This document shows, piece after piece, positions 65 to 58,904 of a stretch of DNA of 64,000 nucleotides; position 1 is the first letter of the stretch; each line of letters begins with the position of its first letter. The translations under genes were made by a program, and so were the position numbers. The stretch is from Membranihabitans marinus (GTDB lineage Bacteria; Bacteroidota; Bacteroidia; Chitinophagales; Saprospiraceae): contig NZ_JAJQYA010000018.1 of the NCBI RefSeq assembly GCF_021729155.1, positions 1 to 64,000 of the forward strand, read 5' to 3'. Under the pieces are notes generated by a model that did no database searches, was not told the origin of the DNA, and worked only from the letters and a program-made list of their open reading frames with translations.

Positions 65-157
65 CTTGGTCGCTTACCGAGGTACAGAGACCTCGGCTCC
101 CTCATCCAATCCACATTAAGTGGATTGGGTTGTCCTCCGGACAACTTCATTCAGTCA
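65..157 (-). repeat. Modular three-hairpin repeat, copy 1 (reverse orientation)
   Basis: Read on the minus strand it starts with the linker TGACTGAATGAAGT. Hairpin A follows (TTGTCC, loop gga, GGACAA), then hairpin B (CAATCCAC/GTGGATTG), the linker GATGAGGGAGCC, and hairpin C (CCGAGG, loop tctctgta, CCTCGG). The same order of linkers and hairpins recurs near 22.1-23.0 kb and 57.6-58.4 kb with other stem sequences. Hairpins A and B are nearly those of the copy at 57807. No coding capacity is credible here. Confidence 0.85.
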
Positions 158-360
158 TGCTCGGTCACCCCCGCCAGCGAGGGACATAAGAGATACTGGG
201 CAAAAAGTGTGACAAATCCAAATTCATCACCATTCATCTTATCATTCAATTCAAATCAATCTTTGATTTTGAAAGAAACATGATTTTTGCTACCGATTTA
301 CTCGGTATTCTTTCCAACATTTTTATATCAATTTCATAGCACATCCACCTCCTGTAGATA

Positions 361-6609: not shown

Positions 6610-7833
6610 CTATTGTCGCATTCCTTTTACCGGATCCAATTGGGTGATCTTAATATACGGATAAAATGAAATAAAGAGAACCATAATGAAGATTATGATA
6701 CTCTGTTCAAAAAATATGGTTTGATCTATACTTGCTTTTATAAGAGGCACAATGTTAAATCGCGCATAAGCTTCCGTAATTTTTTCTCCCAATTCTATTG
6801 GGAAATTATAGAGGTATATCAGTATGGGAAATGCCAAGAGACTTCCACATATTAAGCCGATAAATCCTATAGAAAGGATTTCAATAAATATCATCCAAAA
6901 CAATTGATATGATTTCATACCAATGGCTTTGAGGACACAGAATTCAAAATTTCTTTCATGCAACATCATGAGAACCGTTCCCAAAATTCCAAATCCTATA
7001 AGGATGTAGAGTATGGCTAGAATAATGCGACTACTGGCTTTATCTAATAGTTGAACTTCGATAAGAGAAGGAATCATTTCTTTGTAAGTGCGCACTTCAT
7101 ACATGGTTGAGTCTAGGGTCTGAGACAATGCATTGGCTACCTGGGGAACGTCATCTATGCTCTTGGTGGACAATACAATGGTGGAGTAAAGATTGTCGGC
7201 TGCATAGAAGGATTGAGCATGAGATAGGGGAGTGAGAATAATTTGACTATTGAAATCGGGATTCCCAAAGTCCAATATTCCACATACAATAAACTTCCCA
7301 ACGGCATTGTTACCGTGGTATCCTTGACTGATTCCCAAAATGGTGTCATTGACATTTAACTGAAAATTACTTGCAATGTTTTTGCCGATGATTACATCGT
7401 TGGATTGAGATTGTAAGTATCTTCCTTCGATTAATTGAGCCTCAATTCCACTAAATTCGTTAGCTGCTTGGGGTTCAACCCCTACGATCATTACTCCTTT
7501 AGTTCGGTCTTTTGCTGAAATTAAGGCGAAATTTTCAAGACGAGTCATCGATTTGTCCACTTGGGGAATTTGGTCTATTCTCTTGATTAGTTCGATGTTG
7601 TTTTCCAGTAGTAAATCTATGGATTGATTTTCACTATATCCCAAAGCGTGGATCTGTATGTAACCAGTATAGTTGTGCAACATACTTTCAATGGTGTGCT
7701 GCCATGTCCCCTTTTGAATAGAGGTCATGGTAATAGCAAAAAAAGCGGCAAACATAATACTTGCCGTTGCAATTAAGGTCCTCCTCCTATTTCGCAGTAA
7801 GTTTCTACCAGCCATTTTTAGGAGAAGCCCCAT
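6610..7833 (-). CDS. FtsX-type ABC transporter permease (first of pair)
   Basis: A 407-residue membrane protein with the same four-segment FtsX/MacB layout. The first membrane helix (about 20-40) follows a basic NLLRNRRRT stretch, a periplasmic domain comes next, and three C-terminal helices end at YPYIKITQLDPVKGMRQ. It is clearly related in architecture to the next permease but diverged in sequence, as with LolC and LolE. The gene begins one base after the LolA-like gene stops. It is probably an inner-membrane half-transporter for lipoproteins or lipids; the cargo is unknown. Confidence 0.9.
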   Translation of the reverse strand: MGLLLKMAGRNLLRNRRRTLIATASIMFAAFFAITMTSIQKGTWQHTIESMLHNYTGYIQIHALGYSENQSIDLLLENNIELIKRIDQIPQVDKSMTRLENFALISAKDRTKGVMIVGVEPQAANEFSGIEAQLIEGRYLQSQSNDVIIGKNIASNFQLNVNDTILGISQGYHGNNAVGKFIVCGILDFGNPDFNSQIILTPLSHAQSFYAADNLYSTIVLSTKSIDDVPQVANALSQTLDSTMYEVRTYKEMIPSLIEVQLLDKASSRIILAILYILIGFGILGTVLMMLHERNFEFCVLKAIGMKSYQLFWMIFIEILSIGFIGLICGSLLAFPILIYLYNFPIELGEKITEAYARFNIVPLIKASIDQTIFFEQSIIIFIMVLFISFYPYIKITQLDPVKGMRQ

Positions 7834-7834
7834 A

Positions 7835-8584
7835 TCATAATTGTTTTTTCATGTTTTGAATAGTGAAATAGGCAGCAGGTATTGGTTTGTCGAATTCCCA
7901 ATGTAAATATTCAATAGTAGTTGAATTATCGGCCTTATTTTCTGGGATGATTTTAAGTACGGATGGAAGTGTTCGATTCCCAAATTTACGAATTTTAGAC
8001 GCTGTCAAAGTATTGATTAACATCAGATCTTCATCGTAAAATTCGGTTTTTAACTGCATAAAATCCTTTTTACTTATCCAGATGATTAGTTCACCCCAAA
8101 CTACAGCTGCATTTTCCTTGGGTTTAAGTCGCAGTTTGTAACAGTCGAAATTGTCAAAACTATCCTCGCCAATTATTTCATGTCGGTAATCCAACATAAG
8201 GCTAGAATGTTTTACTAAATCGTCATTGGTAAAATCCGAACCCATCCAAGATTGTGACATCATCGATGGGGGAAGTTTGATCGTTCTCTCAATTTTGGGC
8301 TGCCAATTCCATATTTCATCATCAAGTTTGAGATAGGAAATTCCACGATCTCTGGTAGGAGCTTCTATATATATTAGCGTTTGTTCCAACCCATCTGCCC
8401 AACATTTCAATTCAAGAGTTCTATTCCATTTGGGACGTATAATGGTCATTTTCATAGAGGCAAAACTGGTCCCTGCTCTTAGTTTTTCTTCAGATTTTTG
8501 GATGATATCGGTGGCAGAAAGAGATTGAGTACTTCCAGTTATGCAACAAATAAAGGATAATATAACAAATGTTAAGATTCTCAC
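7835..8584 (-). CDS. Outer-membrane lipoprotein-sorting (LolA-like) protein
   Basis: A 249-residue protein with a signal peptide (about 1-22). The body matches the LolA-like family annotated as outer membrane lipoprotein-sorting protein (PF17131-type). Recognisable parts are the early ADGLEQTLIYIEAPTRDRGISYL region, the IWNWQPKIERTIKLPPSMMSQSWMGSDF-type core and a DLMLINTLTASKIRKFGNRTLPS region. These proteins have the half-barrel fold of LolA, which shields acyl chains. It is the first gene of the operon, with a GTG start. With the two permeases, ATPase and barrel downstream it would be the periplasmic carrier. Confidence 0.88.
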   Translation of the reverse strand: MRILTFVILSFICCITGSTQSLSATDIIQKSEEKLRAGTSFASMKMTIIRPKWNRTLELKCWADGLEQTLIYIEAPTRDRGISYLKLDDEIWNWQPKIERTIKLPPSMMSQSWMGSDFTNDDLVKHSSLMLDYRHEIIGEDSFDNFDCYKLRLKPKENAAVVWGELIIWISKKDFMQLKTEFYDEDLMLINTLTASKIRKFGNRTLPSVLKIIPENKADNSTTIEYLHWEFDKPIPAAYFTIQNMKKQL

Positions 8585-21912: not shown

Positions 21913-22089
21913 GTATAGGTGGTAAATATTTTGAGGTTAATGGACGGATTGTTTTCCTAGAAATGGTTATTTCTTTAATCCCAATTCATGTATTAATCCA
22001 TGATTGCCCTGTAACTCGTAAGGTTTTTAGCCACTGGCTTCGGTGTGGTATTTTAATTTATTTTGAGTACGTAGAGACATGACTGAATG

Positions 22090-22173
22090 TAACTGAATGA
22101 AGTCACCATAGTGACCAAATACCCTCAATGGGTATTTGATGAAGGCACCAATGCCTCCGCGCATTGGGTGGGA
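22090..22173 (+). repeat. Modular three-hairpin repeat, copy 2
   Basis: Linker aactgaatgaa leads into hairpin A (GTCAC cata GTGAC, 22102-22115) and hairpin B (AAATACCC tcaat GGGTATTT, 22117-22137). Linker gatgaaggca follows, then hairpin C (CCAATGC ctccgc GCATTGG, 22148-22167) and the tail GGTGGG. All three stems differ from those of copy 1. Confidence 0.85.
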
Positions 22174-22198
22174 GAGGAAAGTATCCAATCGACTAAAT

Positions 22199-22295
22199 GT
22201 GACTGAATAAAGTGCATTATCGAACATAATACGAAGTATCATTGACCGTAAATCGGTCAATGGTGAGATAACCACAGCTACCATGCTGTGGGTGG
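22199..22295 (+). repeat. Modular three-hairpin repeat, copy 3 (degenerate)
   Basis: Linker tgactgaataaagt, a weak hairpin A region, hairpin B (CATTGACCG taaat CGGTCAATG, 22240-22262), then hairpin C (CCACAGC taccat GCTGTGG, 22272-22291) and GGTGGGT. The gatgaaggaacc linker is decayed here. Confidence 0.75.
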
Positions 22296-22300
22296 GTGAG

Positions 22301-22424
22301 GAAAGGTCGCAAATCGACCTTTGATGAAGATGACCGAATGTAGTTGCTCTTTAGAGCAACTCGATGGACTAAATGTCCATCGGATGAGGGAACCGGAGCC
22401 ACTGCGCTCCGGGTGGGTAGGCCA
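22301..22424 (+). repeat. Modular three-hairpin repeat, copy 4 with extra B hairpin
   Basis: A B-type hairpin (AAAGGTCG caaat CGACCTTT, 22302-22322) precedes a complete unit. That unit has linker tgaccgaatgtag, hairpin A (GTTGCTC ttta GAGCAAC), hairpin B (CGATGGAC taaat GTCCATCG), linker gatgagggaa, hairpin C (CCGGAG ccactgcg CTCCGG) and tail GGTGGGTAGGCC. Confidence 0.85.
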
Positions 22425-22512
22425 CTGTGCCGAGGCGTGATTGCCCTGGAATTCCTAGTTAAGATACTACTACCAGTATAGCATTACGTCTTAATTCACA
22501 ATATTTAAGCCA

Positions 22513-22614
22513 TGACTGAATGAAGTAGTCTGAAAGACTACCAAATGCCCACTGAGGGCATTTGATGAAGGAACCGAAATCACTGTGTTTCGGGTGGGTT
22601 GGCCTTGCGTCTCC
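22513..22614 (+). repeat. Modular three-hairpin repeat, copy 5
   Basis: Linker tgactgaatgaag, hairpin A (TAGTCT gaa AGACTA), hairpin B (AAATGCCC actga GGGCATTT), linker gatgaaggaa, hairpin C (CCGAAA tcactgtg TTTCGG), tail GGTGGGTTGGCC and a terminal TTGCGTCTCC. It is nearly identical to the copy at 58248, 36 kb away. Confidence 0.88.
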
Positions 22615-22685
22615 CAAAACCACCAATTTAAGACTTATTATTATGTTTTTGACATCAATAATTTAACTTACTATAATGATGCGTC

Positions 22686-22966
22686 GTCATGCCACAGGGG
22701 GCATGACTTCACTCATCTGGCTTACCCACCCAAAGCCAGTGGCTTTGGTGCCTTCGTCATTGGTAGATTGACTACCAATGGTCCTGCGGACCCTACTCAG
22801 TTAGATTTAATCCATCGGGTTGCTCAATAGAGCAACTACATTCGTATACCTCGGCACAGTGGCTCCGGTTCCCTCATCCAATCCATATTTAATGGATTGG
22901 GTACTTCGTACTGCATTCGGTCATATTTAGGACATCGGGTTGCCTTTTGGCAACTACATTCAGTCA
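22686..22966 (-). repeat. Modular hairpin repeat block, reverse orientation
   Basis: On the minus strand from 22966 the block begins with linker tgactgaatgtag. The first elements are A (GTTGCC aaaa GGCAAC), linker tgaccgaatgcagt, A (GTAC gaa-type), B (CAATCCAT/ATGGATTG) and linker gatgagggaacc. A degenerate C (CCGGAG/CCGAGG) follows, then A (GTTGCTC tatt GAGCAAC), A (GTCC gca GGAC) and B (CATTGGTAG tcaat CTACCAATG). It ends with C (CCAAAGCC act GGCTTTGG), tail GGTGGGTAAGCC and a final stem GTCATGCC/GGCATGAC. It is a head-to-head block relative to copies 2-5. Confidence 0.82.
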
Positions 22967-22979
22967 TTCGAAATCTTTT

Positions 22980-23704
22980 CCGTCATTATAAAATGTAATT
23001 CGTATAAATCATAGGGTTTCTCCCTATGCTATTTTATGTCGTCCTTTCAGGACTGCTTTTAGTTTTTTTGGCGTGATTGCTTTAAAATTCAGGTGGAAAA
23101 TTCCATCGTGCCGAAGCATGATTTCCCTATAATTCGTCTATAATCTTCCCTAATTCATAGTTGTTTAAAAAAAATACTGGACCGTAATTTAAAGGACGGA
23201 ATGGGCTTTTTATACAGTCTTAAGGGTGGATCCTAGCTATATAAATAGAATGGATACTGTATTTGGTTAACTATTTGATATGAGTTTTTAAGAAATATTG
23301 ATAAAAACCAAAAATTATTGACTTTTTATAATGTGAAAAAAGTTTGTATTTATTTGTAATAATGTGGCGCATTTTTTTGACTTAATGTCAAATAATATAT
23401 TTTTTATCATTTTAAGTTCGAAATTATATTCTTTAAGTTTTGCCATTTTGACTATGGAATTAAATTTATTAACGATTAATTAATAAATTATTAATAATGT
23501 CGTAATAATTGTGAAGTTATGGCAATAAATAATGGAAGTCTTTGTATTTCCTGTAAAATGCGTTAATATGATACTTAAAGGGATAATAATTGGTCATATT
23601 GATTTTATATTCTCGAAAATATTTCTATATCTTTACCTCCTGAAATTATTTTGACCTAATAAAGAAGCATTTATCATGTCAAAATCGTTTTGATTTATAT
23701 TACT
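22980..23704. other. Gene-free stretch with two short hairpins
   Basis: CATAGGG tttct CCCTATG (23010-23028) and GTCC tttca GGAC (23041-23053) lie just beyond the modular repeats and look like another dispersed palindromic repeat. From about 23160 to 23704 the DNA is AT-rich leader without a gene or RNA I can recognise. Confidence 0.5.
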
Positions 23705-56625: not shown

Positions 56626-57573
56626 ATGATAGATCCGGCTGAATTTGTGACCAATAGTCGATTGTCATTGATGAAAGCGGGATTGGAGGTTTGGGCCGAT
56701 TGGATGTCCAATATGTACGAGAAGCCCATCTTGGAACATCTCCAAACATTTGAGCAAGAGCGGTTTCAGATAGCATCGTCAATGGTGGATGCCAAGCTCG
56801 GTAAAATAGGGCAGAGGTTGCGCCTTCTAGACGCCAGTGTTGATCGTACGGATTTGGATGGTTTTTTTTATCATTGGACTTATCTTCAGCTATTGTTGAG
56901 CTTTTGGCAGCGCTACGATGATTTAAATCCTTCTTTGCAGCTGAATTTACTCTATCAATCCGGTCTGAATTTTACAAAGAAAAATCTCGCTACTGCGCCC
57001 AGATTAGAGGGGCGGTTTACGGTTCTGTATCAAGAGTTTGAAAAGGTGGAGAAGTTGCGACAGCGCGAGGTTTGGTTTCTGGATAAAGATGGGGGAAGAT
57101 TTCATTTACTGCGAGATTTTGCATTTGGCAATCAACCATTTGAGCAAACATTTATAACCGGGAGAGATTATGGCGGACAATTGATTCCCTTGCCTTTCGA
57201 CGGCAGTGTTCGATGTTGGAAAGAGAATTTGGCCCTTATGGCGGTTTCTTCAGAAGCATTGGATTGGTCGAAGTATGTCTGTGATTTACATAGCTTGAAT
57301 GAGAAAATGCATGATGTTTTACTGCTAAATCCATTTTTGGAAGCGCTTCCTGTGGTATTGTCCTTGCAAACTGTTTATGCAGATGGTGAGTGGTATATGT
57401 TAGATCATCAGAGACAGAGGTTGTCGAAATTGGTCGGAAGTGATTTTGTAATGCAAAGTATTTTTGCTGCCTGTTATTATCAACCGACCGTTGTTGTAGG
57501 GTTATGGTCTCGGATGGGATTTCAACCTTGGGCTACTGTACAAGATGGTCAATATCAACCTGTGTTGTTGTGA
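56626..57573 (+). CDS. Hypothetical protein, 315 residues
   Basis: I do not recognise the family. It is soluble, rich in aromatic residues and Leu, and has no signal peptide, membrane helix or catalytic motif. An N-terminal part (about 1-55) looks helical (MKAGLEVWADWMSNMYEKPI). Later segments such as VWFLDKDGGRFHLLRDFAFG and GRDYGGQLIPLPFDGS look like a beta-rich domain that might bind nucleic acid or a ligand. It starts 4 bases after rnc, so it is co-expressed with it. The modular repeat block begins one base after its stop codon. Confidence 0.8.
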   Translation: MIDPAEFVTNSRLSLMKAGLEVWADWMSNMYEKPILEHLQTFEQERFQIASSMVDAKLGKIGQRLRLLDASVDRTDLDGFFYHWTYLQLLLSFWQRYDDLNPSLQLNLLYQSGLNFTKKNLATAPRLEGRFTVLYQEFEKVEKLRQREVWFLDKDGGRFHLLRDFAFGNQPFEQTFITGRDYGGQLIPLPFDGSVRCWKENLALMAVSSEALDWSKYVCDLHSLNEKMHDVLLLNPFLEALPVVLSLQTVYADGEWYMLDHQRQRLSKLVGSDFVMQSIFAACYYQPTVVVGLWSRMGFQPWATVQDGQYQPVLL

Positions 57574-57700
57574 TGACCGAATGAAGTTGCTCAATGGAGC
57601 AACCAAATGTCCTTAATATGACTGAATATAGTGCGAAGCACCAAAGGTCGTAAATCGACCTTTGATGAAGGAACCACGACCTCTGTGTCGTGGGTGGGGA
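57574..57700 (+). repeat. Modular three-hairpin repeat, copy 6 with tandem A units
   Basis: Linker tgaccgaatgaa leads to A (GTTGCTC aatg GAGCAAC). A second linker tgactgaatata leads to A (GTGC gaa GCAC), then B (AAAGGTCG taaat CGACCTTT), linker gatgaaggaa, C (CCACGA cctctgtg TCGTGG, 57674-57693) and tail GGTGGGG. The B stem is the one seen at 22302. It starts immediately after the stop codon of the preceding gene. Confidence 0.88.
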
Positions 57701-57781
57701 AGCCAGGATGAGGGAACCGAGGCCACTGTGCCGAGGCGTGATTGCCCTCAAAATCGTATAGAATATGCCACTGTGCCGAGG

Positions 57782-57890
57782 TGACTGAATGAAGTTGTCC
57801 GGAGGATGACTGAATGAAGTTGTCTGGAGGACAACCCAATCCAGTAAATGTGGATTGGATGAAGGAACCAAAGCCACTGGCTTTGGGTGT
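57782..57890 (+). repeat. Modular three-hairpin repeat, copy 7 with duplicated head
   Basis: The linker plus A-hairpin head (tgactgaatgaagttg) occurs twice in tandem (57782 and 57807). The second is followed by A (TTGTC/GACAA), B (CAATCCA gtaaa TGTGGATTG), linker gatgaaggaa, C (CCAAAGCC act GGCTTTGG) and GGTG. Hairpins A and B match the copy at 65-157. Confidence 0.85.
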
Positions 57891-57899
57891 GAACGAGCA

Positions 57900-57984
57900 T
57901 GACCGAATAAAGTACAAAGTACCGATGATCCAAAAGTGATCATCGATGAGGGAACCGAGATCTCCTGATCTCGGGTGGGTGGCC
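57900..57984 (+). repeat. Modular three-hairpin repeat, copy 8
   Basis: Linker tgaccgaataaa, A (GTAC aaa GTAC), B (CGATGATC caaaagt GATCATCG), linker gatgagggaa, C (CCGAGA tctcctga TCTCGG) and GGTGGGTGGCC. Confidence 0.85.
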
Positions 57985-57987
57985 AAA

Positions 57988-58046
57988 AGCACCAGAGCCC
58001 GTAAATCGGGCTCTGGCGAGTGAAGTCGCAGCCACTGCGCTGCGAC
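57988..58046 (+). repeat. Modular repeat, partial copy 9 (hairpins B and C)
   Basis: B (CCAGAGCCCG taaat CGGGCTCTGG, 57992-58016), a degenerate linker gagtgaa and C (GTCGCAG ccactgcg CTGCGAC). Hairpin A and the tail are missing. Confidence 0.8.
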
Positions 58047-58147
58047 AAGAATACATAAAATTCGACAGCAAATTCTCACTGTGCTGCGACGAGATAGCAT
58101 TTAAATTGACAAGCATAAACTACGATTGCAGTAATAATATAATAATG

Positions 58148-58177
58148 GATGAAGGACCCGGGGCCACTGGCTCCGGC
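58148..58177 (+). repeat. Modular repeat fragment (linker plus hairpin C)
   Basis: The linker gatgaaggacc is followed by a C-type hairpin (CGGGG ccactgg CTCCG). Confidence 0.65.
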
Positions 58178-58247
58178 GTAGTATCAATAAAATTTCATGG
58201 TAATCTTTACTGCGCTGCGACGAGACTGCACTCTATATTTGAAAAAC

Positions 58248-58358
58248 GTAGAGACACGACTAAATGAAGTAGTCTGAAAGACTACCAAATGCCCATTGAG
58301 GGTATTTGATGAAGGAGCCGAAACCTCCGTGTTTCGGGTGGGTCGGCCTTGCGTCTCC
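58248..58358 (+). repeat. Modular three-hairpin repeat, copy 10 with terminal inverted repeats
   Basis: Left end GTAGAGACAC and right end GCGTCTCC are near-complementary. Inside are linker gactaaatgaag, A (TAGTCT gaa AGACTA), B (AAATGCCC attga GGGTATTT), linker gatgaaggag, C (CCGAAA cctccgtg TTTCGG) and tail GGTGGGTCGGCC. It closely matches the copy at 22513. Confidence 0.88.
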
Positions 58359-58373
58359 AAAATAATGTCAAAT

Positions 58374-58395
58374 GAGACGCAAGATCTTGCGTCTC
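58374..58395. repeat. Perfect 22-bp palindrome
   Basis: GAGACGCAAGA is followed directly by its reverse complement TCTTGCGTCTC. The same half-site (GCGTCTC) ends the repeat copies at 22614 and 58358, so it looks like the outer ends of the element joined without an insert. Confidence 0.8.
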
Positions 58396-58904
58396 TACTT
58401 CTCGGCATGATTGCTTCCTGGTCGACTATAATGATATAGCCTTCAGAATTTAACCCTAAAAGGGTGATGGATAAAATTCTCGCATACATTTTTCTCTTTT
58501 ATTATCCCAAAATTCCACTCAAGTATTCTAGGAATATTTCACTATTAACTATATTCAAGAGATATGAGGTCATCTAAACAATGTTAAATTGTGTATTTGT
58601 ATAAAATTTTTTCGTACATTGAATATATTTTTAATTATATAGAATGACTCCGTCGTGAATACCACATCGAAAGTTTATACTATAGTTTTCTATTTATACA
58701 ACCCCTCTCAGTATCGATTATGCTACCATAGTGTAGGATACAATAGTGTGAAACATGACGTTTCGTGATTTGTGATACTAGAATAGTGTTCAAAATTATT
58801 GTTGTATTTAATACCTTGAAATGAGGCCCCAAAAGGACTAATAAGTGAAAATAAGTTGGCAGTAGTGCCCAACCAATTATTTTCTATTATTAAATCCAAA
58901 ACAA
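58396..58904. other. AT-rich gene-free leader before beta-propeller genes
   Basis: About 500 bases without a credible frame, hairpin array or RNA. One more short motif of the ggcatgattgc type lies near 58404. The promoter of the lipoprotein pair probably lies within 58600-58850. Confidence 0.45.

Follow-up and report, generated by a model that had tools for sequence, protein, structure and literature searches.

A three-hairpin repeat family of Saprospiraceae with conserved linkers and stems that vary yet stay paired

Introduction

Integron attC sites and the ends of IS200/IS605 elements are folded single strands that are recognised by their structure, leaving the stems free to vary. Among interspersed repeats, REPs with alternative complementary residues in their stems were described in 2013 by Di Nocera et al. 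(PMC3733652). The GTAG- and CGTC-tagged REPs of that study are high-copy and intergenic and occur in clusters and mosaics, as do the units described here. They have 6-13 bp stems, short loops, an unpaired end tag and subfamilies with complementary stem changes, and our units are again alike, save that the GTAG/CGTC tag is not conserved across genera. Experiments give a precedent for recognition by shape: the TnpA_REP of Marinomonas relies on pairing and on the bases of the loop, and is affected only moderately when the stem is exchanged as a whole (PMC8266576).

Here we analyse a repeat in a 64,000-nt stretch of Membranihabitans marinus DNA, referred to as the window. A first-pass annotation made from the sequence alone had reported about ten copies at three sites, with conserved linkers and loops and with stems that change but stay paired, and had suggested either selection on structure or a process that rewrites both arms.

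Results

The repeat unit has a fixed three-hairpin layout

Alignment of many copies defined one repeat unit of ~93 nt (range ~80-95 nt) with three hairpins on one strand. The order is ATGACYGAATGNA, hairpin A, hairpin B, GATGARGGAA, hairpin C and the tail GTGGGTNRGCC. Hairpin A has 4 or 7 bp and a variable loop (TTTA, TATA, AATA, GAA, AAA and others), hairpin B has an 8-bp stem and a TAAAT loop, and hairpin C has ~7 bp with CC..GG at its base. Conservation begins at ATGAC on the left and ends ~11 nt past hairpin C on the right. The unit ends (ATGAC.. and ..GGGTNRGCC) carry no terminal inverted repeats, unlike MITEs of DDE transposons; like REPs, the units are short palindromes of high copy number in intergenic DNA. 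When the window units tested and two units from other genera were folded as single-stranded DNA, the same three hairpins were obtained with z-scores of -4.2 to -6.1. The linkers, loops and stems named in the first-pass annotation were all found in the window sequence. Its description of the linkers and loops as conserved holds for the linkers and the B loop and fails for the loop of hairpin A, and its description of the stems as changing applies less to the outer CC/GG of hairpin C, which seldom varies.

The window holds eleven strong full units (E < 1e-14 with the covariance model) at three sites, plus one weak match, confirming the earlier observation. These sites are 66-158(-), 22089-22924 with six units and 57618-58348 with four. 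When no more than 2 mismatches are allowed, the window has 20 occurrences of the linker GATGAAGGAACC, compared to a mean of 5.9 and a maximum of 11 in 100 shuffles. Around the full units, truncated units, orphan C modules and hybrids form a mosaic; between 57574 and 58358 it consists of the four full units together with units truncated at their 3' ends, orphan C modules and hybrid C hairpins whose arms do not match. The features are as follows, with bit scores from the R1 covariance model.

66..158, minus strand: full unit, 90.2 bits
22089..22178, plus strand: full unit, 76.9 bits
22216..22302, plus strand: full unit, 67.9 bits
22330..22423, plus strand: full unit, the best in the window, 99.8 bits; fold z -5.1, other strand -6.1; stems A GTTGCTC/GAGCAAC, B CGATGGAC/GTCCATCG, C CCGGAGC/GCTCCGG
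22512..22604, plus strand: full unit, 90.5 bits
22719..22804, minus strand: full unit, 59.6 bits
22838..22924, minus strand: full unit with a hybrid C hairpin (CCGGAGC..GCCGAGG), 69.3 bits
57573..57617, plus strand: 3'-truncated unit, from sequence, with the 5' linker, hairpin A GTTGCTC/GAGCAAC and the 5' arm and loop of B (AAATGTCC TTAAT)
57618..57704, plus strand: full unit, 94.0 bits, E 8e-25; single-stranded DNA fold z -5.2 with exactly its three hairpins; A at 57631-57641 (GTGC/GCAC), B at 57643-57663 (AAAGGTCG TAAAT CGACCTTT), linker at 57664-57673, C at 57674-57693 (CCACGAC/GTCGTGG), tail ending at 57704
57707..57736, plus strand: orphan C module, from sequence (GATGAGGGAACC plus CCGAGGC..GCCGAGG), a hybrid hairpin with incompletely paired arms
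57782..57806, plus strand: 3'-truncated unit, from sequence, with the 5' linker and part of hairpin A
57806..57897, plus strand: full unit, 84.9 bits; A GTTGTCT/GGACAAC, B CAATCCAG TAAAT GTGGATTG (one mismatch), C CCAAAGCC/GGCTTTGG
57899..57985, plus strand: full unit, 81.6 bits, fold z -4.2; A GTAC/GTAC, B CGATGATC/GATCATCG, C CCGAGATC/GATCTCGG, tail GTGGGTGGCC
57987..58048, plus strand: diverged hairpin pair, from sequence; B-like CCAGAGCCCG TAAAT CGGGCTCTGG, linker variant CGAGTGAAG, C-like GTCGCAGC CACTGC GCTGCGAC
58145..58182, plus strand: orphan C module, from sequence (GATGAAGGACCC plus CCGGGGCC/GGCTCCGG); weak R1 match at 58122-58187, E 0.008
58256..58348, plus strand: full unit, 82.0 bits; A GTAGTCT/AGACTAC, B AAATGCCC ATTGA GGGTATTT (one G-T), C CCGAAAC/GTTTCGG, tail GGGTCGGCC

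The truncated unit at 57573..57617 runs straight into the start of the next unit. This type of junction was seen in ~30 arrays, and the absent 3' arm of B was never downstream. Simple nested insertion at the B loop was therefore rejected, because the absent arm was found downstream at 0 of the 34 listed sites, ~30 of which are repeat junctions. At 57573/57574, the first letters of the array coincide with the stop codon of a gene lying downstream of rnc (TGATGACC). In the two congeners, the orthologous fabF-rnc-downstream locus is free of units. A palindrome (GTAGAGAC...GTCTC) flanks several units in the arrangement GTAGAGAC-unit-TTGCGTCTC, in the window at 58343-58400 and 58245-58256, suggesting that palindrome-flanked units may be composite mobile units with a double-foot REP.

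Stems covary within the genome and across genera

To what extent the stems stay paired was quantified first on 35 diverse copies. Standard pairs filled 95.3% of their stem cells compared to 65.7% after shuffling, with 223 double changes versus 64, and sliding the partner by one base brought pairing to 46% or less. Because these 35 rows had been picked for good stems, two checks free of that bias were run. Among copies picked by loop and linker only, 12 of 20 distinct B stems were perfect and 6 more had 7 of 8 pairs. We also searched 84,980 species genomes for TAAAT-N8-GATGARGGAACC, a pattern that leaves the eight stem bases free. It matched 46 contigs, of which those from Membranihabitans and from a single Saprospiraceae MAG showed 5-8 pairs, in most cases 8, and all others 0-4.

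The same pattern was seen in the remaining sets. The 12 window rows had 97.4% of stem cells paired versus 69.6% when shuffled and 67 double changes versus 21, with register slides reaching at most 42%, in an alignment that was itself fitted to the covariance model. Across genera, model-fitted rows gave 94.9% versus 60.1% and 363 double changes versus 102, and further model-fitted sets gave 94.3% versus 62.1% and, for another 75 copies, 93.3% versus 58.1%. Every register slide in the covariation sets stayed at or below 47.5%. Layout was constant across genera and the stems differed. These results support selection on structure, as the first-pass annotation had proposed, given strong covariation within the genome and across genera, B pairing that holds steady as linkers diverge (see below) and no match in Rfam.

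The family is widespread in Saprospiraceae

In the whole M. marinus genome, GATGARGGAACC has 140 exact sites compared to 5 for a reversed control pattern, and 1.66 Mb of its repeat-enriched sequence contain 211 distinct sites at which hairpins B and C are both paired. The family thus extends far past the window. A covariance-model search, which had been recommended at the outset, detected the unit in congeners and in other genera; among Saprospiraceae, 59 of 298 genomes carry it, belonging to 31 of 112 genera. In a class-wide sample of 395 genomes, matches were confined to Saprospiraceae, and as far as sampled the family appears to be restricted to this group. Rfam, at curated and at relaxed thresholds, gave nothing on the units, and no known family with this layout emerged from Rfam or the literature searched. 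The earlier remark that no such family was described therefore stands for the layout; the general kind has been known since the REPs of 2013 (PMC3733652).

Each high-copy genome (G076, G274, G175 and others) has its own diverse set of stems, and in two genomes (G103 and G289) one unit type has expanded. Many near-identical copies lie at separate genomic sites; together with the empty congener locus, these scattered copies point to mobility or recent amplification. Plasmids and phages gave no unit match and two pattern matches on viral contigs were both due to chance, so carriage by phages or plasmids was rejected. In genus g101 the unit is nested within a longer element that has terminal inverted repeats of its own, and part of the unit's spread may thus be hitchhiking. 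Other elements can therefore carry the unit. At L275-L280, L282 and L285 (G103 and G289), this longer interspersed element has the ends TTCAGACCAACTGACCCG and CGGGTCAGTTGKTCTGAA.

Genomic setting and the strand that folds

Units are intergenic and enriched between convergent genes (65 compared to 14 between divergent genes). Their orientation showed no correlation with GC skew (p 0.54, 71 loci), and a lagging-strand bias was rejected on this basis. Several other genera have units no more than a few hundred bases away from tRNA or 5S genes, and the 3' end of the unit often faces that of the tRNA (L233, L237, L239, L241, L245, L269, L271 and L276); in the M. marinus genome, just 2 of 23 tRNAs lie within 400 bp of a unit. 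At L242, a fragment of a group II intron (D1-D4, 1202-1372, 44 bits) lies ~130 nt upstream of a unit, and no RT gene is nearby.

Strong covariation in a molecule whose linkers and loops are conserved usually marks an RNA. The units could accordingly be a structured RNA family, transcribed as leaders, 3' UTRs or small RNAs, whose RNA structure is under selection. Most units that lie no more than 60 bp from the 3' end of a gene are in the sense orientation (13 versus 2), which fits this reading, as do two units in one genome (G251) that lie ~20 nt upstream of related genes starting MIKFFR.IR (L286 8413-8505, with the gene from 8522, and L287 121-213). These genes may be DUF6090-like. G-U pairs also outnumber A-C oppositions 33:16 (p 0.02), suggesting that folding takes place on the strand as written; an RNA would fit this too. 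However, taken together the hundreds of copies do not favour the transcribed strand (29 sense and 39 antisense; 70 versus 63). No neighbouring gene recurs beyond chance in the M. marinus genome, none recurs in eight other genomes, and Rfam offers no match. The share of G-U among paired cells is 2.5%, compared to 6.3% for the tRNA stems in these genomes (p 2.5e-4), with the caveat that the covariance model used to collect copies may disfavour G-U. This low share would favour DNA as the folded strand. We therefore regard an RNA family as unlikely, though it deserves some weight.

Stems of close sister copies differ mostly in one arm, and hairpins reassort

Closest sister copies, near-identical outside one hairpin, show 38 one-arm, pair-breaking differences compared to 10 both-arm differences. 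At longer distances almost all stem differences are paired. As the linkers diverge, pairing of B is maintained (rho -0.03, p 0.73, n=165) and pairing of C drops weakly (rho -0.18, p 0.008). Since sisters differ mostly by one-arm breaks, pairing appears to be kept by two-step selection rather than by rewriting of both arms. The data fit a single mutation followed by restoration of pairing under selection. Rewriting of both arms, as raised in the first-pass annotation, could proceed by template switching (quasipalindrome correction), which copies one arm onto the other and would keep stems perfect without selection. Template switching can create and maintain hairpins (PMC8794818), and many joins and hybrids among the repeats have their breakpoints at hairpin loops. 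The excess of one-arm differences among sisters is nevertheless the opposite of what coupled rewriting predicts, and such rewriting leaves the conservation of linkers and loops across genera unexplained. We consider it very improbable.

A given B stem was found with many different C stems, showing that hairpin modules reassort. Four-gamete squares numbered 5 for A-B, 57 for B-C and 104 for A-C.

No Y1 transposase is associated with the units

Search for a RAYT/Y1 partner had been proposed at the outset. Three Y1 genes are present in the M. marinus genome, one of them a complete RAYT at C28, and hairpin A often resembles a tagged REP (GTAG, stem, TTTA loop, stem). These observations would fit units that are REPs moved by resident Y1 (TnpA_REP) transposases. 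Over Saprospiraceae, Y1_Tnp was detected in 42 of 59 carriers versus 222 of 298 genomes overall, so there is no association between Y1 and the unit, and a RAYT/Y1 partner was rejected over the 298 genomes. The 17 carriers in which Y1_Tnp was undetected, a fraction of the 59 that matches the rate among non-carriers, include G015, G076, G175, G251, G274 and G289, which have 8 or more copies; because diverged RAYTs score low on the Pfam model, absence is read here as not detected. The Y1 genes of the M. marinus genome adjoin other repeats, and none is a cognate RAYT flanked by the unit. The C28 RAYT holds a different REP inside its gene, and the Y1 gene at C5 (L044 ~7560-8015) has two inverted Acido-Lenti-1 hairpins just upstream, at 7244-7286 (+) and 7468-7513 (-). 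G[ACT]AG precedes hairpin A in M. marinus and its congeners only, with its last G paired; other genera have AATGG or other letters, so that no conserved unpaired GTAG/CGTC tag beside the stem was found across genera. A RAYT/REP system, weakened by these results, seems improbable.

Downstream of the intact C28 RAYT, at L046 8950-9440, lie duplicated 3' RAYT pieces that carry the gene's internal REP. An Acido-Lenti-1 RNA (RF01687) is also present in the window, at 23010-23054. Rather than an sRNA gene, RF01687 may be a REP that belongs to a Y1 transposase.

Other candidate enzymes fared no better. A reverse transcriptase partner (group II intron, retron or other RT) was rejected, as RVT_1 (PF00078) is absent from the M. 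marinus genome (G000) and from G015, and IS110 and Y2 transposases were rejected, being absent from most high-copy carriers. Genes for Y1, Y2, IS110 and RT were each undetected in some high-copy genomes. A mobile hairpin element that is ancient within Saprospiraceae and spreads in a shape-dependent manner through an enzyme family new to hairpin repeats (not Y1, Y2, IS110 or RT) is possible, and we hold this view only tentatively.

Discussion

We describe a repeat family with a constant layout, high copy number, a spread over 31 genera, stems that vary yet remain Watson-Crick paired and hairpin modules that reassort. It is probably, in our judgement, a previously uncatalogued, non-autonomous, REP-like interspersed repeat whose folded strand is recognised by its shape together with its linkers and loops. 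A putative trans-acting factor would read the single-stranded linkers and loops and the pairedness of the stems, and not the stem sequence, so that only correctly folding units would give new copies. Resident copies would drift one arm at a time and copies that restore pairing would found new lineages, and the stems would thereby diversify in step. Judged by analogy, the repeat most likely works like a single-stranded DNA hairpin substrate of the REP/IS200 type. We do not claim membership in a TnpA_REP system, because tests for the tag and for a Y1 association found neither.

The family offers unusually clean natural covariation, in which one fixed scaffold carries dozens of different stems in each genome, and amounts to a natural mutagenesis experiment on shape-based recognition. 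It also raises a testable question, namely which factor reads the repeat in genomes without a detectable RAYT. More generally, covariation tests alone cannot separate an RNA gene from a mobile DNA repeat selected for structure.

Several known systems resemble the REP-like repeat proposed here. Acido-Lenti-1 (RF01687) is a repeated hairpin motif of the same genome, lying 86 nt from the nearest unit, at 22838-22924, but it is a 46-nt single motif of other sequence beside the C5 Y1 gene and does not match the unit. The ends of IS200/IS605 elements (PMC6006769) share structure-specific recognition and freely varying stems with the units. Unlike attC sites and IS200/IS605 ends, the units are dispersed as well as arrayed and have another layout, with no integron array seen and no obligatory link to Y1. 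In RAYT/TnpA_REP systems and REPINs (PMC3116915, PMC6006769, PMC8266576), a folded strand read by its loop, tag and pairedness would yield conservation of the kind observed, whereas our units lack a Y1 association over 298 genomes. Tagged REPs (PMC3733652) are single or paired hairpins, whereas our repeat combines hairpins A, B and C into a fixed triple that has two long conserved linkers and a tail. That stems change in complementary ways within REP families is already known (PMC3733652). What is new is the occurrence in many carriers without a detectable Y1, the family-wide spread and the fixed three-hairpin unit with its long conserved linkers.
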